Assembly (NCBI RefSeq): GCF_001458335.1 | Contig: NZ_CYTO01000009.1 | Span: 236,066-300,065 of the forward strand | Length of the DNA: 64,000 nt | Direction of reading: 5' to 3' | From: Cognatishimia activa | GTDB taxonomy: Bacteria > Pseudomonadota > Alphaproteobacteria > Rhodobacterales > Rhodobacteraceae | Shown: piece by piece, positions 1,284 to 60,457 of the stretch | Layout of the letters: every line of letters starts with the position of its first letter | Position numbering within the stretch: the first letter of the stretch is position 1 | Translations under genes and position numbers: made by a program | Notes under the pieces: generated by a model | The model's input: only the letters and a program-made list of their open reading frames with translations | Told to the model about the DNA's origin: nothing | Database searches by the model: none

Positions 1284-1796
1284 TTATTCAATCACATCAA
1301 TTCTATTAAGCTGCCAAACTGAGCGCGCGTAAATGGTTTCTGTGCGATATTTTGCAGATTGATCAAATGGGTACAGCAACCAAAGCGGGCCTTTCCCGCG
1401 GCGTGACATGGGCTCGCCATTCATCCGAAAGGCAACAATCGCATCGTCATTTAATGGCTCGTTCAATGCAAACTCGACGGCGTAATCATTGATCGCGGTG
1501 ACCCGAATTTTGTTTCCAGAAAGATCAAGATTCTTCAACAATTCGGTCAACCGGACACCTTCGAAACGGTTTACGCCGTTGGTCCAGATGGTCGAAGTGA
1601 CAATCTCTTGGTTCTCCATCCCATCAAGCGCGGGCAGATCCAATGAGATTGTCACCTCCTTCTCCCTGCTCGAGATATCAGTGATCTCTAAGAGGACCGG
1701 CTCCGGTCCCTGGACAACTTCTTTTGCATGTCCGGGGACGCTGGTGCTGAAAGCAACAACGCAAATTCCCAGAAAAATGCATAAAAAACGGGACAT
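1284..1796 (-). CDS. Secreted small sulfite-oxidase-fold (molybdopterin-binding-like) protein
   Basis: A 170-residue protein with an N-terminal signal peptide (cleavage likely after GHA, about residue 24). It has the compact oxidoreductase molybdopterin-binding fold, recognised from the run TSTIWTNGV..FEGVRLTELL, the INDYAVE segment and the tail GPLWLLYPFD...YARSVWQL. Catalytic members carry a cysteine ligand for molybdenum just before the tryptophan-rich stretch. Here that stretch reads VTSTIW and I see no cysteine in the mature protein, so enzymatic activity is doubtful. A GGAGG Shine-Dalgarno sits 7 nt before the ATG. It precedes the histidine kinase by 23 bp. Family members beside sensor kinases or cyclases suggest a ligand-sensing role (inference). 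A perfect 22-bp dyad lies 67 bp upstream. Confidence 0.8.
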   Translation of the reverse strand: MSRFLCIFLGICVVAFSTSVPGHAKEVVQGPEPVLLEITDISSREKEVTISLDLPALDGMENQEIVTSTIWTNGVNRFEGVRLTELLKNLDLSGNKIRVTAINDYAVEFALNEPLNDDAIVAFRMNGEPMSRRGKGPLWLLYPFDQSAKYRTETIYARSVWQLNRIDVIE

Positions 1797-1862: not shown

Positions 1863-1884
1863 GACCTATCCGAGTGGATAGGTC
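1863..1884. promoter_or_regulatory. Dyad site 1, GACCTATCC-N4-GGATAGGTC
   Basis: A perfect inverted repeat: 9-bp arms at 1863-1871 and 1876-1884 with spacer GAGT. It lies 67 bp upstream of the secreted sulfite-oxidase-fold gene, within its likely promoter, and 26 bp past the stop of the glycosyltransferase fusion. There is no T-run on either side, which argues against a simple terminator. The same half-site recurs in the two other intergenic regions of this locus (3420-3439, 4151-4169), suggesting an operator for a dimeric regulator. Confidence 0.6.
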
Positions 1885-1909
1885 CGCTGGTTTGCGAAAG
1901 TGATCGTTC

Positions 1910-3286
1910 TTAATATGCGCCGCGACCGGTCAGAACGGCGCGGAAGGTCGCCATAATCAGCACCGCATCAAGTAGCAGCGTCCGAGAGCGGACATAGGCC
2001 AAGTCCATGTCAATCATCTGATCAAACCCGATATCCGCACGCCCAGAGACTTGCCAGATCCCGGTCAGGCCAGGTTTTACAGCAAGGCGGCCTTTGGCTT
2101 TCTCGGGGTAAGCTGCAACTTCTTCTGGCAGAGCAGGGCGTGGACCAACGATCGACATATCCCCCTTAAGCACATTGAAAATCTGCGGTAGCTCATCCAA
2201 CGAGTAACGACGGATAAAACGGCCGATGCGGGTGATACGTGGATCCGCTTTGGATTTAAAGCAAACCCCATCGCGGTCAGACGTCGCCAAAAGGGCCGCA
2301 CGTTTTTCTTCTGAATCCATGGCCATGGAGCGCAGCTTGTACAATGTGAACCGCCGTCCGTTTTCTCCGACCCGCACCTGCTTGAAAATTGGTGATCCTT
2401 TGCTTTCAAGTCGGATCAACGCCATGATGACCAATAGCACTGGCCCAAGCGCGAGCAGCGCACCGGCGCTGAGCACGATATCTAAGCCGCGCTTTGTTTT
2501 GCGCTCCGCTGAACTTTGCAAATACGGCCAAACCGCCGCCCGCGCTAGGAATGTCAGGTTGCCGACAAGATAGCGTTTTGCCATGCGGCGCGGCTCCATC
2601 ATCAAGCGCCAAACCCATTCTGCGCGTGCCTGACGCACCCAAACAGGAGCGCGGGAAACATTGCCTGCAAGAAAGTCGAACAACCCGCCAACGGAAATAC
2701 AGACCTTGGCTTTGAGCCCGTCAAAGTTACGATCGATCCAAAGCTCTTGCAAAGGGACGCCCATGGCCACCAGGAGTATTTTGGCACCAGACTGGTTGAT
2801 CGCTTTGACCGCAGACCTGTCTTCTGCACCGTTATAGCCGTCACGCGTTCCAGCGACTTGCAACCCAGGTATCCGGCGCTGCAACTCCATCGCTGCTGCG
2901 TCAGCCGTGCCCGGTTTACCTCCGAGAAGATAGACACTCTGGCCACGTTTGGCGGCCTCAATCAGAAGTTTAGGTACAAAATCGGTGCCATTTAGGTTTT
3001 CCCGGATCCGGCTGCCTTGCATTTTAGCCGCCATCTCGACGCCGATCCCATCAGACAAGACCATATCTGCTCGCTCTAGGGCCGCCGCATACATGTCATC
3101 TTGTGACGCAACATTCGCGCAATGGGCATTCAGGAATGCCACATGACGACGTCCGGGCGCGAGGATTCGAGAGATCGCCTCGCGCGTATATAGGTTGTCG
3201 ATCCGCCGCCCGAGCACTTCGCGGCAGATCGGAAGATCGGACTTTGACTGGATCGGCGATGTATCGATATTTACTTGATAGGTCAT
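1910..3286 (-). CDS. GT26 (WecG/TagA/CpsF) glycosyltransferase fused to a polyprenyl-phosphate sugar-phosphate transferase
   Basis: A 458-residue two-domain protein. Residues about 25-240 match WecG/TagA/CpsF transferases (RHVAFLNAHCAN, DMVLSDGIGVEMAA, LNGTDFVPKL, VYLLGGKPG, SVGGLFDFLAG). Residues about 262-458 form a monotopic phosphoglycosyltransferase of the WbaP/WcaJ C-terminal type: KRGLDIV hydrophobic re-entrant helix, FTLYKLRSM, the SLDELPQ acid pair, and GDMSIVGPRPALP. The second domain should load a sugar-phosphate onto undecaprenyl phosphate at the inner membrane; the first would add the next sugar (ManNAc-type in the named families). Two successive steps of lipid-linked repeat-unit assembly are thus joined in one chain. 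It is transcribed away from the response regulator, with a good GGGAG Shine-Dalgarno and dyad site 2 upstream. Sugar specificity cannot be read from the sequence. Confidence 0.9.
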   Translation of the reverse strand: MTYQVNIDTSPIQSKSDLPICREVLGRRIDNLYTREAISRILAPGRRHVAFLNAHCANVASQDDMYAAALERADMVLSDGIGVEMAAKMQGSRIRENLNGTDFVPKLLIEAAKRGQSVYLLGGKPGTADAAAMELQRRIPGLQVAGTRDGYNGAEDRSAVKAINQSGAKILLVAMGVPLQELWIDRNFDGLKAKVCISVGGLFDFLAGNVSRAPVWVRQARAEWVWRLMMEPRRMAKRYLVGNLTFLARAAVWPYLQSSAERKTKRGLDIVLSAGALLALGPVLLVIMALIRLESKGSPIFKQVRVGENGRRFTLYKLRSMAMDSEEKRAALLATSDRDGVCFKSKADPRITRIGRFIRRYSLDELPQIFNVLKGDMSIVGPRPALPEEVAAYPEKAKGRLAVKPGLTGIWQVSGRADIGFDQMIDMDLAYVRSRTLLLDAVLIMATFRAVLTGRGAY

Positions 3287-3419
3287 GGCTTGCTCCCTTC
3301 GCTTTTCCCTAAATTGACGGGGAAGGGCGCGGCTTTCTTGATCACAAACGGGGCAAATTGCGGCTAAATTGGAGAAGCATGGAAATAAAAGCTGTTTGTT
3401 TTCATGCCATTGGGAAAAT

Positions 3420-3439
3420 GACTATCCCTTTGGGTAGAG
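3420..3439. promoter_or_regulatory. Dyad site 2, ACTATCC-N4-GGGTAGA
   Basis: Inverted half-sites CTATCC (3422-3427) and GGGTAG (3432-3437) around spacer CTTT, with one mismatch to a perfect dyad. It sits between the divergent glycosyltransferase fusion (start 3286) and response regulator (start 3536), about 135 and 97 bp from the two starts, so one bound dimer could control both. It is the second of three copies in this locus. The rest of the 249-bp gap is AT-rich, with no other feature I can defend. Confidence 0.55.
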
Positions 3440-3535
3440 TTATCACCTGATGTTTCCCGCGAAATTTTCCCATTTCGGCCACAGTTGTCTGCAATGTTTA
3501 ATTATTGAGTAATGGTATCGAGCGAGGGTTCGACG

Positions 3536-4150
3536 ATGCGAATTTTAATTGCTGATGATCATGATCTGCTGCGCGACGCGTTGGTGGCCTTCATGGATCA
3601 AGAAGACAATATCGAGACCCACACGGCGGCGGATCTGACAGAAGCAGTCGCGCTGATTGATGGGGATTGGACGTATGATCTGGTGCTGTTGGATTACAAC
3701 ATGCCAGGCATGAACGGGCTTGAAGGTCTAAAAGTGGCCGCAGACCGCAGCGGTGTGCACCGGGTCGCGCTTATGTCCGGAGAGGCCAGCCGCGACATTG
3801 CGGAAAAAGCGTTGGAGATGGGGGCAACAGGTTTTGTTCCCAAAACCCTGCCGGCGAAATCTCTGGTCAACGCGATCAAGTTTATGGCCATGGGCGAACA
3901 ATACGCGCCTTTGGATTTCATGACTGCAGAACCAGAGGCAAATGATCACCCGCTTCTGGAAAACCTCACGGACCGAGAGACGCAGGTCTTGAAAGGTCTG
4001 ACAGAAGGCAAGTCCAACAAAGAGATCGCGCGCGATCTGGACTTGTCCGAACCAACCGTGAAGCTGCACGTGAAAACGCTTTATAAAAAACTCGGCGTGG
4101 CAAACCGCACCCAAGCGGCGCTGATTGCACGCGATCAAGGCGTCTTCTAA
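3536..4150 (+). CDS. LuxR/NarL-family response regulator
   Basis: A 204-residue regulator. The receiver domain (about 1-120) has the acidic pair in ADDHD and phosphoacceptor Asp53 in LLDYNMPGMNG; a LuxR-type helix-turn-helix (about 138-204) contains LTDREVQ-like LTDRETQVLKGL and SNKEIARDLDLSEPTVKLHVKTLYKKL. I start it at the ATG at 3536, 8 nt after GAGGG; an in-frame ATG at 3512 would add eight residues but has no ribosome site. It stands between the glycosyltransferase fusion and the Wzz/Wzy pair, so control of polysaccharide synthesis is the natural guess. The histidine kinase at 1-1260 is a plausible partner. The dyads flanking this gene are candidate binding sites. Confidence 0.93.
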   Translation: MRILIADDHDLLRDALVAFMDQEDNIETHTAADLTEAVALIDGDWTYDLVLLDYNMPGMNGLEGLKVAADRSGVHRVALMSGEASRDIAEKALEMGATGFVPKTLPAKSLVNAIKFMAMGEQYAPLDFMTAEPEANDHPLLENLTDRETQVLKGLTEGKSNKEIARDLDLSEPTVKLHVKTLYKKLGVANRTQAALIARDQGVF

Positions 4151-4169
4151 GACCTATCCATTCGGATCA
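4151..4169. promoter_or_regulatory. Dyad site 3, GACCTATCC-N4-GGATCA
   Basis: It starts at the base after the response-regulator stop codon. The left half GACCTATCC (4151-4159) is identical over 9 bp to that of site 1. The right half keeps GGAT (4164-4167) at the same 4-bp spacing and then diverges. It lies about 90 bp before the Wzz-like gene. Confidence 0.5.
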
Positions 4170-4257: not shown

Positions 4258-5730
4258 GTGCGAGTGCCCCCAATGGTAATGCAAAGCGATCTTCCGGCCT
4301 ATTCATCGAATGCAGAATACCTGAGCCGACTGGACAAAGTGCTGTCCAAGGGAAAACCCGGACAACCGGGTTACTTGCTGAAACGGATTACGCGTTACAC
4401 AGGGGTGTGCTTAATCTGGATTGCCCTAATCTGGGTGCCCATCCTGGGCTATCTCGGTTCCGCGCCGCCCAAATACACATCGACAATGTCCCTCATCCTA
4501 CCCGGGTCGGGCGTATCCGCCAGTGTAAATATGGAAGGGATCGGTCAAGCCAGCAGTTTCGCCTCTTCGGCCTTTGCCAGCAATTCCCTAAGCCCGACAC
4601 AAACCTATAAACGCCTCTTGCGCGCTGACCGCATTTTGGACGCGGCAGCAACATCCTTGATGACAGAACGCCAATACCTCCCGCGACCCAAAGTGACCTT
4701 GGTGGACCAGACGGGCCTTATCCATGTCGAAATGACTGGGGTGTCCCCGGAAGAGGCGCGGGATCGAAACCAAGCGATCCTCACCGCGTTTTTCACAGAG
4801 GTTGAGGCTCTGCGCGCGGACGATCTTGAAGAACGAGAAGAGGGGGCTGTCAAAGCCATTGAGGAATATCGCGATTCAGTGCTGGCGACCCGTCAAGCGG
4901 TGAACAATCTGCAAACTCAAACGGGCTTTATCTCTAAAGATCAGTTCGATCGTCAGGTCACCGATAATGACAATCGACAAACCGAAGTGGTTGGCCTGCG
5001 CGCTGAACTCGAAGAAAAAGTTGCGTTCGTGGCTCAAATGCAGGCAGCCCTCGGTCTCACTCCGCTGCAAGCTGCGCGTGCGCTCGATCTTTATTCCGAT
5101 CAGCGGTACCTCGCGCTGGTGGCTGATTTGGCCGACAAAGCCACGCTGCGCAACGAGGTTGGCGCGCTTTATGGGGCACGCCACCCAGAGCGCCAGAAAG
5201 CAGAGACCGATTATGCCCGTGCATTTGAGGCCACGGTCGATGCGGCAATGGCTGTGACCGGCTTGCCGCGCGATGTCGCCGAAAAATTGAATGTGTCTCA
5301 GTTTGGGGACCGCACATCATTGCTTGCAGAGTTGTTGCGCAATGAAGCCGAACGCGCAGGACTTGAAGCGCAATACCTTGAACTGAACCGCCGCTACATG
5401 CAGGAGAAAAACCGGCTTGAACGCGCCGCCTTGGCCGCCTCAAAACTAGAGGACTTGCAACGCGACTTCCAAGTAGCCGAAGCGGTTTTTGCCTCCGCAA
5501 TAGCGCGCGCTCAATCCTCCAAGACAGACGTGTTTGCCTCGTACCCACTGGTACAGGTGCTAGAGAACCCATCACTGCCCGAAGAAGGCACTGCATCGCG
5601 CAAAAAGATGGCGCTGCTGGCGGGCTTTGGGGCAACGTTCCTCGTGCTGATGGCGCTGTCGTTAGGTTGGGTTCGCAAGAGCATTATCCGTTGGGCGATT
5701 GGCCTGCGCGAAGGCCCAACTCATGTTTGA
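4258..5730 (+). CDS. Wzz-like polysaccharide chain-length / export protein
   Basis: A 490-residue inner-membrane protein with the layout of polysaccharide co-polymerases. It has a cytoplasmic N-terminus, TM1 at about 50-70 (CLIWIALIWVPILGYLG), a long periplasmic segment rich in predicted coiled coil (about 170-440), a short proline-containing stretch (PSLPEEGTASRKK) and TM2 at about 450-470. There is no C-terminal tyrosine-kinase domain. The start is uncertain: the GTG at 4258 has no clear Shine-Dalgarno, and ATG codons at 4273 and 4279 are alternatives. Its stop overlaps the start of the next gene by 8 bp, so the two are translationally coupled. It probably sets chain length together with the downstream polymerase. 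Confidence 0.82.
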   Translation: MRVPPMVMQSDLPAYSSNAEYLSRLDKVLSKGKPGQPGYLLKRITRYTGVCLIWIALIWVPILGYLGSAPPKYTSTMSLILPGSGVSASVNMEGIGQASSFASSAFASNSLSPTQTYKRLLRADRILDAAATSLMTERQYLPRPKVTLVDQTGLIHVEMTGVSPEEARDRNQAILTAFFTEVEALRADDLEEREEGAVKAIEEYRDSVLATRQAVNNLQTQTGFISKDQFDRQVTDNDNRQTEVVGLRAELEEKVAFVAQMQAALGLTPLQAARALDLYSDQRYLALVADLADKATLRNEVGALYGARHPERQKAETDYARAFEATVDAAMAVTGLPRDVAEKLNVSQFGDRTSLLAELLRNEAERAGLEAQYLELNRRYMQEKNRLERAALAASKLEDLQRDFQVAEAVFASAIARAQSSKTDVFASYPLVQVLENPSLPEEGTASRKKMALLAGFGATFLVLMALSLGWVRKSIIRWAIGLREGPTHV

Positions 5731-7042
5731 TGGCACCGTCGGCCTCAAGCCTCAAAACCCAGCGGAGGCTTTTGTTTATAAGACAATGGCGCGGACCTGG
5801 CCTTTCTACGCAGTGGGCGCGCTGTACGTTGTTGGTCCCGTCATTGCTTGGCTCTTAGGAGGGTTGGCGGTGCTGGCGCTTTACCTAGGTCCAGCCATGC
5901 GGCGAGACCTACAGCCCAATCCGATCCCGCCAGCGGTCTGGATCTGGTTGATCGGCATGGGGGCCATGTTGCCCATCCTGTGGGTCGGTCATGCAAATTG
6001 GGGATACGGGCTTACGGCAACCATTAAGTCGACGATAGGCTGGGCCAAGGGCTGGGCATTGATGGCCTTGTTTCCTTTGGCAGGGGCGGTGCTGCCGATA
6101 CGCCGCGAAATCCTTGTGCGCGGGCAGTGTGTGATTGGATTGTGGACGCTGTGCCTGGCGCCGCTTTTGTTGGTCGCCCCTTATATCGGTCTGCCTGAAC
6201 GCATTTTTGTGTCGCCGCTCAAAGCAGTCGGCGGGCCGGGTCCAGAATATTTTGGGCTCTACCTCTTCACCTATGATCCAGCGAGCATGACCCCCCGCTG
6301 GCAGTTCTACGCCCCGTGGTCCCCATTCGCGGCGCTTTTGGGCGTGTGCATGGTGCTCTTTGCGCTTGAAGAAAAAGACCGCCGTTGGCGCTGGGCTGGT
6401 CTTGCGGCGGGCGTCCTTATGGTTCTGGCGTCCAAATCTCGTATGGGGCTGGTGGGATTGATCTTTTGCACCATGCCTCCAAGGCTTTTGCCGTTGCTTG
6501 GAAAACAATGGGCTGTGATGACACTCGCTTTGCTCACGGCGAGCCTCGCCGTCACTGCGGAAAGGTTGTTTGACTCCGTGGGGGCAGGGATCTCTGCCTT
6601 CAAAAACGCCCGCGCCGATAGCACACGGGTGCGTTCAACACTGCAGCGCATCGCGGGCGAACGTTGGCGCGAAGAAGCGGTGTGGTTTGGCCATGGTCGC
6701 CCTGAACCGGGCAGTCATATTGTGGAATATATGCCCATTGGAACCCACCACACATGGTATGGGCTGTTGTTTGTAAAAGGTGTGACCGGGTTTCTGGCCC
6801 TACTGATTCCGCTGCTTTATCAACTGCTGCTCGCACTTTCAGACGCAGCACTGCGTCCAAGGGGACGGTTGCCGTTGGGAATTCTGTTGGTGATCGTCAT
6901 GTTGTCATTTGGGGAAAACATTGAAATCGAGGCCTATTTGCTTTGGCCGGGCCTTATGATCCTTGGTGTTCACGCCCGAGAAATTGCAGCTGACCCCAAG
7001 AGTTTTGTTGAGCCAAAACGGATTAAAGCCAAACCTGCTTAA
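5723..7042 (+). CDS. O-antigen polymerase/ligase-like (Wzy/WaaL) membrane protein
   Basis: A 439-residue polytopic membrane protein with about ten hydrophobic segments and one larger extracytoplasmic loop (about residues 290-350). The loop contains RVRSTLQRIAGE and then HHTWYGLLFVKG, typical of O-antigen polymerase/ligase proteins. I start at the ATG at 5723, preceded by GAAGG at 8 nt, rather than the TTG at 5699. The ATG overlaps the Wzz-like stop codon. It probably joins lipid-linked repeat units in the periplasm. No flippase (Wzx) or outer-membrane exporter (Wza) is encoded nearby, so these would have to lie elsewhere or beyond the left edge. A strong terminator follows. Confidence 0.8.
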   Translation: MFDGTVGLKPQNPAEAFVYKTMARTWPFYAVGALYVVGPVIAWLLGGLAVLALYLGPAMRRDLQPNPIPPAVWIWLIGMGAMLPILWVGHANWGYGLTATIKSTIGWAKGWALMALFPLAGAVLPIRREILVRGQCVIGLWTLCLAPLLLVAPYIGLPERIFVSPLKAVGGPGPEYFGLYLFTYDPASMTPRWQFYAPWSPFAALLGVCMVLFALEEKDRRWRWAGLAAGVLMVLASKSRMGLVGLIFCTMPPRLLPLLGKQWAVMTLALLTASLAVTAERLFDSVGAGISAFKNARADSTRVRSTLQRIAGERWREEAVWFGHGRPEPGSHIVEYMPIGTHHTWYGLLFVKGVTGFLALLIPLLYQLLLALSDAALRPRGRLPLGILLVIVMLSFGENIEIEAYLLWPGLMILGVHAREIAADPKSFVEPKRIKAKPA

Positions 7043-7142: not shown

Positions 7143-7226
7143 TGGTGGGCGACCCTGGAATCGAACCAGGCGTGAGTCGCCTCGAGGGAGTTACAGTCCC
7201 CTGCCACACCTTGCGGCCTGTCGCCC
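7143..7226 (-). tRNA. tRNA-Tyr (anticodon GTA)
   Basis: An 84-nt class II tRNA with genomically encoded CCA. The acceptor stem GGGCGAC pairs with GTCGCCC; the anticodon loop ACTGTAACT carries GTA. There is a long variable arm (class II) and a T-stem CCTGG / CCAGG around TTCGATT. It is transcribed toward the terminator at 7081-7108. Confidence 0.97.
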
Positions 7227-59701: not shown

Positions 59702-60457
59702 TCAGTCAGCTTGGGACGGACCTGCCACCAATTCAAGAGCTGCGGCTGCGCTTAGGCAAAGTTGCGGGAGACAAAGCGGAGCCATTGGCTGCGGATTGTC
59801 CTTCAACGCTTGCGCGAGTGCGTTCGCAAACGCGTCTAACTGTTGTAGGCGCGGGTTGTTGGGGACAGATTGTACGATGAATGCCACGATGGTCTGGGCG
59901 ATCTCAGCGATGGGTGAAATCTCCAACGGTTCTGAAAGCACCTTTAGTCGCAGTGCGTCAGAGACAGCTTCGGCGACCTTCTGATCAGTTGTGATGTACA
60001 AGCCGATGGTTTCGGACTTCACTGTCTCAAGCTGTTTTACCAAGCTTTCAGCCTCAAACGGGCTCTCTTGCAAACGTTTGGCGCAGTAGGTCAGAAACTG
60101 CCGCATGCGTAGTGCAAGGCCAGCCGCTTCAATTTGGTCGGCGGCAACCTCATACTGAATGAACTGCGCGTGTTCTGGCGCTTCCATCGCCTTTTGAAAT
60201 GCTTTGGTGACAGCGCCGGCAAATCCATCATTCAGCAGGTCCAACCCAGCCGGATCGATTTGCACTTCCATTGAGCTGCGGTGAATAAAAAACGCACTGT
60301 CTTCCGGGGCAACACCAAGGCTGCCTTGCGCCTTTGCCAGACTGCCCAGCACCAACAAGATCGCGCGCACCGCTGCACTGTCGGAAAAGAGCCGTGCCGC
60401 CTCTCCCGTGGGATAGGATTTGGCAAACATCGGACTGTCAAAAACGCTGGCGGCCAT
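59702..60457 (-). CDS. Degenerate PcaB-like (3-carboxymuconate cycloisomerase) protein
   Basis: A 251-residue protein; PcaB enzymes are about 350-450. The first 130 residues clearly follow PcaB (VFDSPMFAKSYPTGEAARLFSDSAAVRA, then MEAPEHAQFIQYEVAADQIEAAGLALRMRQFL). The GATSQDI active-site segment of family members reads YEVAADQI here, and the rest (from about 130) no longer resembles the superfamily: the GSSxMPxKxNP signature is absent. The frame has no stop and keeps normal composition. It is either a decayed gene or a protein with a new role. It starts 14 bp after the PcaD-like gene. Confidence 0.72.
   Translation of the reverse strand: MAASVFDSPMFAKSYPTGEAARLFSDSAAVRAILLVLGSLAKAQGSLGVAPEDSAFFIHRSSMEVQIDPAGLDLLNDGFAGAVTKAFQKAMEAPEHAQFIQYEVAADQIEAAGLALRMRQFLTYCAKRLQESPFEAESLVKQLETVKSETIGLYITTDQKVAEAVSDALRLKVLSEPLEISPIAEIAQTIVAFIVQSVPNNPRLQQLDAFANALAQALKDNPQPMAPLCLPQLCLSAAAALELVAGPSQAD

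Follow-up and report, generated by a model that had tools for sequence, protein, structure and literature searches.

A conserved inverted repeat at promoters of a PruR-like sensor, NarL-type regulator and polysaccharide locus in Cognatishimia activa and other Rhodobacteraceae

Dyads and genes of the locus

The stretch of DNA analysed in this study (the window) comprises 64,000 nucleotides of the genome of Cognatishimia activa (Rhodobacteraceae; contig NZ_CYTO01000009.1, positions 236,066 to 300,065). Near its left end, three inverted repeats, or dyads, of the form CTATCC-N4-GGATAG lie among genes of a putative sensory phosphorelay and of polysaccharide synthesis. Dyad 1 (1863-1884, core 1866-1881) reads GACCTATCC-GAGT-GGATAGGTC, its core CTATCC-GAGT-GGATAG is free of mismatches, and it is found about 70 bp upstream of a pruR-like gene, which makes it a proposed candidate operator of the pruR-kinase operon. 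Dyad 2 (3420-3439, core 3422-3437), CTATCC-CTTT-GGGTAG with one mismatch, is in the divergent promoter between a glycosyltransferase gene and a response regulator gene. Dyad 3 (4151-4169, core 4154-4169), CTATCC-ATTC-GGATCA with two mismatches, follows directly on the stop codon of the regulator and is upstream of a wzz/wzy-like gene pair. The initial annotation had reported all three dyads at these positions, and its sequences and coordinates proved exact.

At one mismatch or fewer, three matches were found in the window where 0.03 were expected, a count that none of 100 shuffles reached. The third of these matches is not dyad 3. It is CTCTCC-CGTG-GGATAG at 60401-60416, inside a coding sequence (59702-60457), and given that location it was taken as chance and rejected as an operator; the initial claim that the window holds no other copy is thus strictly incorrect, though the additional copy is coding. 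With the degenerate pattern CTAYCC-N4-GGRTAG at up to two mismatches, nine sites were found against 3.1 expected (0 of 100 shuffles). With the original pattern at three mismatches, the 20 sites in the window against 13.3 expected were not significant, as many being present in 7 of 100 shuffles. Across the genome the original pattern gave 54 sites at two mismatches and its reverse 74. This is the background level, so that dyad 3 by its sequence alone is indistinguishable from background. It is supported by its position, because the junction between regulator and wzz carries a dyad with at most one mismatch in 35 of 40 relatives.

The regulator encoded at 3536-4150 (plus strand) is of the LuxR/NarL type (Pfam Response_reg, 3.3e-22; GerE, 1.8e-22), its best match in the PDB is NarL (1a04, E 1.4e-24), and it is the proposed binder of the dyad. 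The pruR-like gene (1284-1796, minus strand) encodes a periplasmic protein with a sulfite-oxidase fold that lacks the cysteine of the molybdenum cofactor (Moco). Next to it on the same strand, positions 1-1260 encode the N-terminal 420 amino acid residues of a hybrid histidine kinase (PAS, HisKA, HATPase_c, Response_reg) bearing the marks of PruR-DTB systems described below; the whole kinase gene spans L047:9801-12326, L047 being the locus that continues the window to the left.

Between dyads 1 and 2, a WecG/TagA-type glycosyltransferase fused to a bacterial sugar transferase is encoded at 1910-3286 on the minus strand (Pfam Glyco_tran_WecG, 3.4e-60; Bac_transf, 2.8e-62) and is probably chain-initiating. 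The Wzz-like chain-length protein (4258-5730, plus strand) was named from weak matches and its position; it had no Pfam match, and its NCBIfam match to pepcterm_ChnLen (2.6e-5) was below the cut-off. The Wzy-like membrane protein (5699-7042, plus strand) had neither Pfam nor NCBIfam matches and owes its name to the initial annotation and its position; its gene adjoins wzz in 41 junctions of the related loci considered below. In the left continuation, wza (L047:8575-9804, plus strand; Poly_export) and wzx (L047:7155-8417, minus strand; Polysacc_synt_3) are separated by a gap with a fourth, degenerate dyad, CTACCC-AAAC-GGGTAT at L047:8485, which is 2.6 kb outside the window and has one mismatch to CTAYCC-N4-GGRTAG. 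The complete order is wzx(-), degenerate dyad, wza(+), kinase(-), pruR(-), dyad 1, glycosyltransferase(-), dyad 2, regulator(+), dyad 3, wzz(+), wzy(+). An initiating transferase (Bac_transf), a flippase (Polysacc_synt_3) and an export protein (Poly_export), which characterize Wzx/Wzy-dependent loci, were all found. Beyond the Wzy-like gene, a tRNA-Tyr gene (gta; 7143-7226, minus strand) separates it from a gene that was named rRNA-methyltransferase-like from its open reading frame.

Conservation of the dyad

Two samples of relatives were used: 80 named loci (1.40 Mb in total), which were found with an alignment of the regulator and are the best 80 of a longer list, and a panel of 149 genomes of the family, each from a different genus. 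They overlap in part (e.g., L263/G042, L266/G161, L291/G162) and several genera are repeated; the samples are neither independent nor complete. In the 80 named loci, 169 dyads with at most one mismatch were found at spacer 4. Other spacers gave 2-5 sites (0-3, 5-8 and 10), except for spacer 9 with 20 sites, of which 17 overlap ordinary dyads. The reversed half-site gave 11 sites, and 59 permuted half-sites averaged 9.9, the highest being CYATCC with 171, which is the motif itself, and the next 35. The consensus is CCTATCC-gwwc-GGATAGG; about 15% of the sites have C/G rather than T/A at positions 4 and 13.

These sites are confined largely to promoter-bearing junctions. With genes called from tblastn matches to eight proteins of the window or its relatives rather than from full annotation, a dyad was present in 39/39 junctions between pruR and the glycosyltransferase gene, 35/40 between regulator and wzz, 32/39 between wzx and wza, 25/42 between glycosyltransferase and regulator, and 14/21 between pruR and regulator. 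These five main types together have a dyad in 145 of 181 junctions, compared with 0 of 137 control junctions (kinase-pruR, 0/61; wzz-wzy, 0/41; the convergent wza-kinase, 0/35). A sixth type, kinase-regulator, has it in 1/6. In total, 148 of the 169 sites fall in the five main junctions and none is inside a matched marker gene. Moreover, each of ten related loci taken with the glycosyltransferase protein (L049-L058) has at least one dyad with up to two mismatches in these junctions, and the strict 18-mer CCTAYCC-N4-GGRTAGG occurs in the panel as 42 copies in 26 genomes, the reversed control as 5 copies in 5 genomes. The dyad is therefore real, and its conservation upstream of the same orthologues, which the initial annotation had named as the support to seek, is confirmed. 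The statement that the dyad marks every intergenic region holds for regions with a promoter and fails for operon-internal and convergent junctions.

As had also been proposed, the whole genome (3.36 Mb) was scanned, and at one mismatch or fewer it contains five sites and none for the reversed control. Two belong to this locus, one to a paralogous module, a fourth is the copy in the coding sequence at 60401, and the last, on another contig, is intergenic and unrelated. The paralogous copy is perfect (CTATCC-AAAG-GGATAG, G000:C9:72938) and is located in the promoter region from which a pruR-like gene, accompanied by a hybrid kinase gene, and a gene for a LuxR-type regulator diverge. This module is complete (L046:4809-8717; G000:C9, about 69.8-73.7 kb), its regulator is 48% identical to that of the window, and the two modules, sharing one operator, may cross-talk. 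The initial annotation had proposed one local regulon. A regulon is supported, but not a purely local one, given the fourth dyad between wzx and wza and the perfect dyad at the paralogous module. The unrelated site, CTATCC-GATG-GGACAG with one mismatch (G000:C24:775462; L048:7463), is about 65 bp upstream of a gene called glucose/sorbosone-dehydrogenase-like from a reading of the protein, without a family call; it is possibly a further regulon member, possibly chance.

A chance resemblance amplified by the choice of the reader has next to no probability: the motif is indeed at background at two to three mismatches in both genome and window, but the junction test in the 80 named loci refutes chance, as do the panel and the regulator homologues described below. 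It is also very improbable that the dyads act as RNA hairpins, either terminators or leader elements. A stem of 6-9 bp with a loop of four bases is possible, and dyads 1 and 3 do come shortly after a stop codon. However, five terminator-like sites (a stem-loop with a T run) were called and none coincides with the three dyads, and the convergent wza-kinase junctions, where terminators are expected, are all without a dyad. Furthermore, the variable pair of the 169 sites is T-A in 120, T-G in 21, C-A in 20, C-G in 5 and another combination in 3. The two variable positions change independently, the non-pairing C-A being as common as the T-G wobble. By junctions, non-pairing variation and terminator calls, RNA hairpins and terminators were rejected.

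The regulator associated with the dyad

The initial annotation regarded the LuxR-type regulator as the obvious candidate to bind the dyad. Around 99 homologues of this regulator, with 38-100% identity and divided into three bins, spacer-4 dyads of CTATMC were found in the proportions 19/33, 19/41 and 6/25 by falling identity. Other spacers gave 0-2, spacer 4 being the only enriched one, and 149 permuted half-sites averaged 0.43, 0.28 and 0.09, only variants of the motif itself being high. CTATAC half-sites are frequent near the more distant regulators. Among the panel genomes, the strict 18-mer is present in 22/65 with a regulator homologue (E <= 1e-40) and 4/84 without (Fisher 4.6e-6, phylogeny ignored), and in 15/22 with closer regulators and 11/127 of the rest (5e-9, phylogeny again ignored).

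The association extends to loci without wzz. Regulators with pruR and no wzz in the locus have a dyad nearby in 13 of 22 cases, and in one genome (G014; L055 and L144) the polysaccharide locus and the regulator module are on different contigs with a dyad at both. The fifth base of the half-site varies with the class of the recognition helix: 58 C and 4 A for EPT, 27 C, 23 A and 4 T for EVT, and 8 C and 6 A for EAT; the difference between EPT and EVT (p 1.2e-6) was calculated per half-site and is confounded by clade. The regulator helix TVKLHVK resembles TVKVHVK of NarL. Together with the pruR-regulator junctions and the paralogous module, the cases without wzz and the two-contig case support the LuxR-type regulator as the best candidate binder.

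Several results weigh against this assignment. Of the 80 named regulators, 28 lack a dyad at one mismatch or fewer within 400 bp upstream and 250 bp downstream. These 28 include 15 of the 17 regulators whose locus contains neither gene of the pruR and wzz pair, some contigs being short. The strict 18-mer is absent from 43 of the 65 genomes in which a regulator homologue is present. Regulators without a dyad might work in trans or through other sites. The dyad between glycosyltransferase and regulator is missing in 17/42 junctions, and 21 of the 169 sites are outside the five main junctions: downstream of the regulator, on the far side of the kinase, or distant from marker genes. In addition, the 18-mer occurs in four genomes that have no close regulator; in two of these it coincides with, or closely precedes, the start of another NarL-like regulator (24-27% identity), as it also does in G097, which does have a close regulator. 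Finally, in 20 PruR loci from other families of the class no dyad came closer to pruR than 1.7 kb, and only one of these loci (L325) has a close regulator, which is 51% identical and without a dyad.

In three genera (L116:6153, L120:5991, L136:6278), dyads of the form CCTACCC-N4-GG(G/A)TAGG coincide with, or closely precede, the start of another NarL-like regulator with 24-28% identity, and are perhaps a related operator of that other regulator.

Whether the dyad might instead be a promoter operator of another DNA-binding protein, such as a global regulator of polysaccharide synthesis, has to be judged on both sets of results. Such a protein would fit the finding that only 2 of the 17 regulators with neither pruR nor wzz have the dyad, as well as the three strict dyads at the start of another NarL-like regulator. 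Against it are the dyads in 14/21 pruR-regulator junctions and near 13/22 regulators with pruR and no wzz, the dyad at the paralogous module of the same genome, the rarity of the strict dyad in genomes without the regulator (4/84) and the covariation of the half-site with the class of recognition helix. We consider this explanation unlikely and retain the adjacent regulator as the candidate.

Two further candidates were rejected. The first was the motif as a general marker of PruR in Alphaproteobacteria: 39 of 44 places were in other families, and in the 20 examined spacer-4 dyads numbered three, against 0-4 at other spacers. Because these 20 PruR loci lack a dyad within 1.7 kb of the gene, the motif, judged by its distribution, follows the lineage of the NarL-type response regulator and not PruR in general. 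The second was the lux box. Quorum-sensing LuxR regulators have an autoinducer-binding domain and their lux box is ACCTG...CAGGT; the N-terminal domain of the regulator here is Response_reg and the core of the dyad differs.

Sensor, promoter architecture and proposed circuit

The PruR-like protein matched PDB 7kos by profile (E 1.3e-51), and Foldseek searches with its AlphaFold model (predicted local distance difference test, pLDDT, 89.5) ranked PruR at positions 1-7. The sulfite-oxidase fold, a length of about 170 amino acid residues and the similarity to a solved PruR were all found. Trp71, Asn103 and Tyr105 are present in 34/34 aligned PruR-like sequences, and the Trp71 and Tyr105 columns appear, by reading rather than superposition, to be the published Trp and Tyr of PruR. 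A cysteine after residue 30 occurs in 1/34, and across 63 sequences no column contains more than four. A Moco enzyme was therefore rejected, as the conserved Cys is absent and the protein is PruR-like by profile and Foldseek. Of the initial description as a sulfite-oxidase-fold protein the fold stands, and the protein is better described as a putative sensor subunit of a pterin-binding family, whose ligand would be a pterin.

The pruR-kinase gene pair forms 61 junctions in the named loci. Trp54 and Glu62 of the kinase, which belong to a WX7E string found in 25/25 sequences, are invariant. The periplasmic domain of the kinase is helical in its model (pLDDT 92.2); a Foldseek search with this sensor domain gave no significant match (best E 0.023). 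Its C-terminal stretch was read as Hpt, for which Pfam gave nothing in the window kinase and a sub-threshold match in the paralogue. These marks of kinase and PruR match those given for PruR-DTB systems in a review (PMC13259868). In one related locus (L128:9220-11621), the kinase matches in two slightly overlapping pieces, and the gene may be frameshifted in the genome or the assembly.

The architecture of the promoters is compatible with activation. A -10-like element, TGnnATR, was found 45-49 bp from the dyad centre in 18/55 pruR promoters and only 0-3 times in other 5-bp bins; by reading, the window pruR promoter has TGCGCCATTCT at this position. With starts placed by this element, the dyad would be near -60, a usual position for an activator. 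Moreover, a third half-site, YTATCY, is exactly 20 bp from the first in 17/55 pruR promoters (L215-L294), and everted GGRTAG-N4/N5-CTAYCC pairs number 41 and 32 in the 80 loci, compared with 2-20 at other spacers from 0 to 7. Many operators therefore probably consist of three half-sites. In wzx promoters (e.g., L216, L221, L229, L230), a strongly conserved block, TTGCGCC...CCTSTCC...GCG...GAC, was observed on the side of the dyad facing wzx, about 20-53 bp from its centre; it exceeds the length that a promoter needs.

We consider it highly likely that the dyad is the operator of the locus's own regulator, within a PruR-sensed phosphorelay that would switch on both its own genes and a polysaccharide locus of the Wzx/Wzy type. 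The periplasmic PruR-like protein would bind a pterin and signal to the helical periplasmic domain of the kinase, and a phosphorelay through HisKA, the receiver and perhaps a C-terminal Hpt would phosphorylate the NarL/FixJ-type regulator. The phosphorylated regulator would dimerise on CCTATCC-N4-GGATAGG, some 60 bp ahead of the transcription starts, where it would most likely act as an activator of pruR-kinase, wzz-wzy, wza/wzx, the glycosyltransferase gene and the regulator gene itself. The outcome would be an autoregulated switch for one polysaccharide, presumably of the Wzx/Wzy type. The dyad is thus very probably the switch that puts the polysaccharide machinery under the control of a pterin-sensing relay.

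The regulator could also bind the dyad and repress its targets, the phosphorelay relieving or imposing the repression. Deletion of pruR in Agrobacterium tumefaciens is reported to raise polysaccharide production (PMC13259868), and position alone does not prove activation. The dyad centre is, however, about 60 bp upstream of the inferred, unmapped start, where an activator usually binds, and not over the -10 element. Repression is accordingly a possibility of some weight, though clearly the less probable one, and activation by the phosphorylated regulator is preferred.

The proposed circuit has parallels in several known systems. In TorS/TorT, TorT is a separate periplasmic co-sensor, as the PruR-like protein would be here. 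Compared with the TorS/TorT and BarA/UvrY types of phosphorelay, the hybrid kinase here is closest to TorS in NCBIfam (below the cut-off), its co-sensor is PruR-like, its regulator is NarL-type and the operator is different. Similar to NarL of Escherichia coli, the regulator combines a receiver with a GerE helix-turn-helix and a recognition helix TVK(V/L)HVK, and its candidate operator has inverted TACCC-like half-sites (TAYCC here); the reported NarL site is TACCCCTAAAGGGGTA with the half-site TACCC (PMC4549865). Different from NarL, whose 7-2-7 sites have heptamers 2 bp apart and thus pentamers 6 bp apart (TACCC-N6-GGGTA), the pentamers here are 4 bp apart (TAYCC-N4-GGRTA), and the target is a polysaccharide locus. 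Hexamers at spacer 6, the 7-2-7 arrangement, gave 2 sites in the 80 loci, compared with 169 at spacer 4.

Also among the closest known systems are the PruR-DTB systems with a DcpA-TorS-BaeS-type kinase, including one of Ruegeria pomeroyi. Similar to the pair in the window, they have adjacent pruR and kinase genes, a PruR with Trp and without the Moco Cys, the periplasmic WX7E motif and a PAS-HisKA-HATPase-Rec kinase (PMC13259868). PruA-PruR-DcpA of Agrobacterium likewise places surface polysaccharide under a PruR-type sensor; its output is turnover of cyclic di-GMP (c-di-GMP), whereas a phosphorelay to transcription is proposed here (same source). DTB kinases are reported there as widespread, with their output not given: as far as the source was accessible, no response regulator, operator or target is named, all three of which are proposed here, and the terms response regulator, LuxR and exopolysaccharide do not occur in the main text. 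No description of this operator or regulon was found in the literature searched, mostly at the level of titles and abstracts. The proposed operator and regulon are new and made of known kinds of parts.

For the family, we lean towards a general arrangement in Rhodobacteraceae, in which a dedicated NarL-type regulator and a dedicated operator, the latter frequently including a third half-site 4-5 bp further out, connect a PruR-DTB pair to a complete locus for surface-polysaccharide export. The periplasmic pterin state would then be read as transcription and not as c-di-GMP, and two modules of one genome would share the operator, with possible cross-talk. The gain is a proposed output arm for PruR-DTB pterin signalling. 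The conserved operator provides reporter promoters (pruR, wza, wzz), a named regulator and a defined polysaccharide locus. With these, control of roseobacter surface polysaccharide by pterins through transcription becomes testable, and the regulon can be annotated from sequence across many genera.

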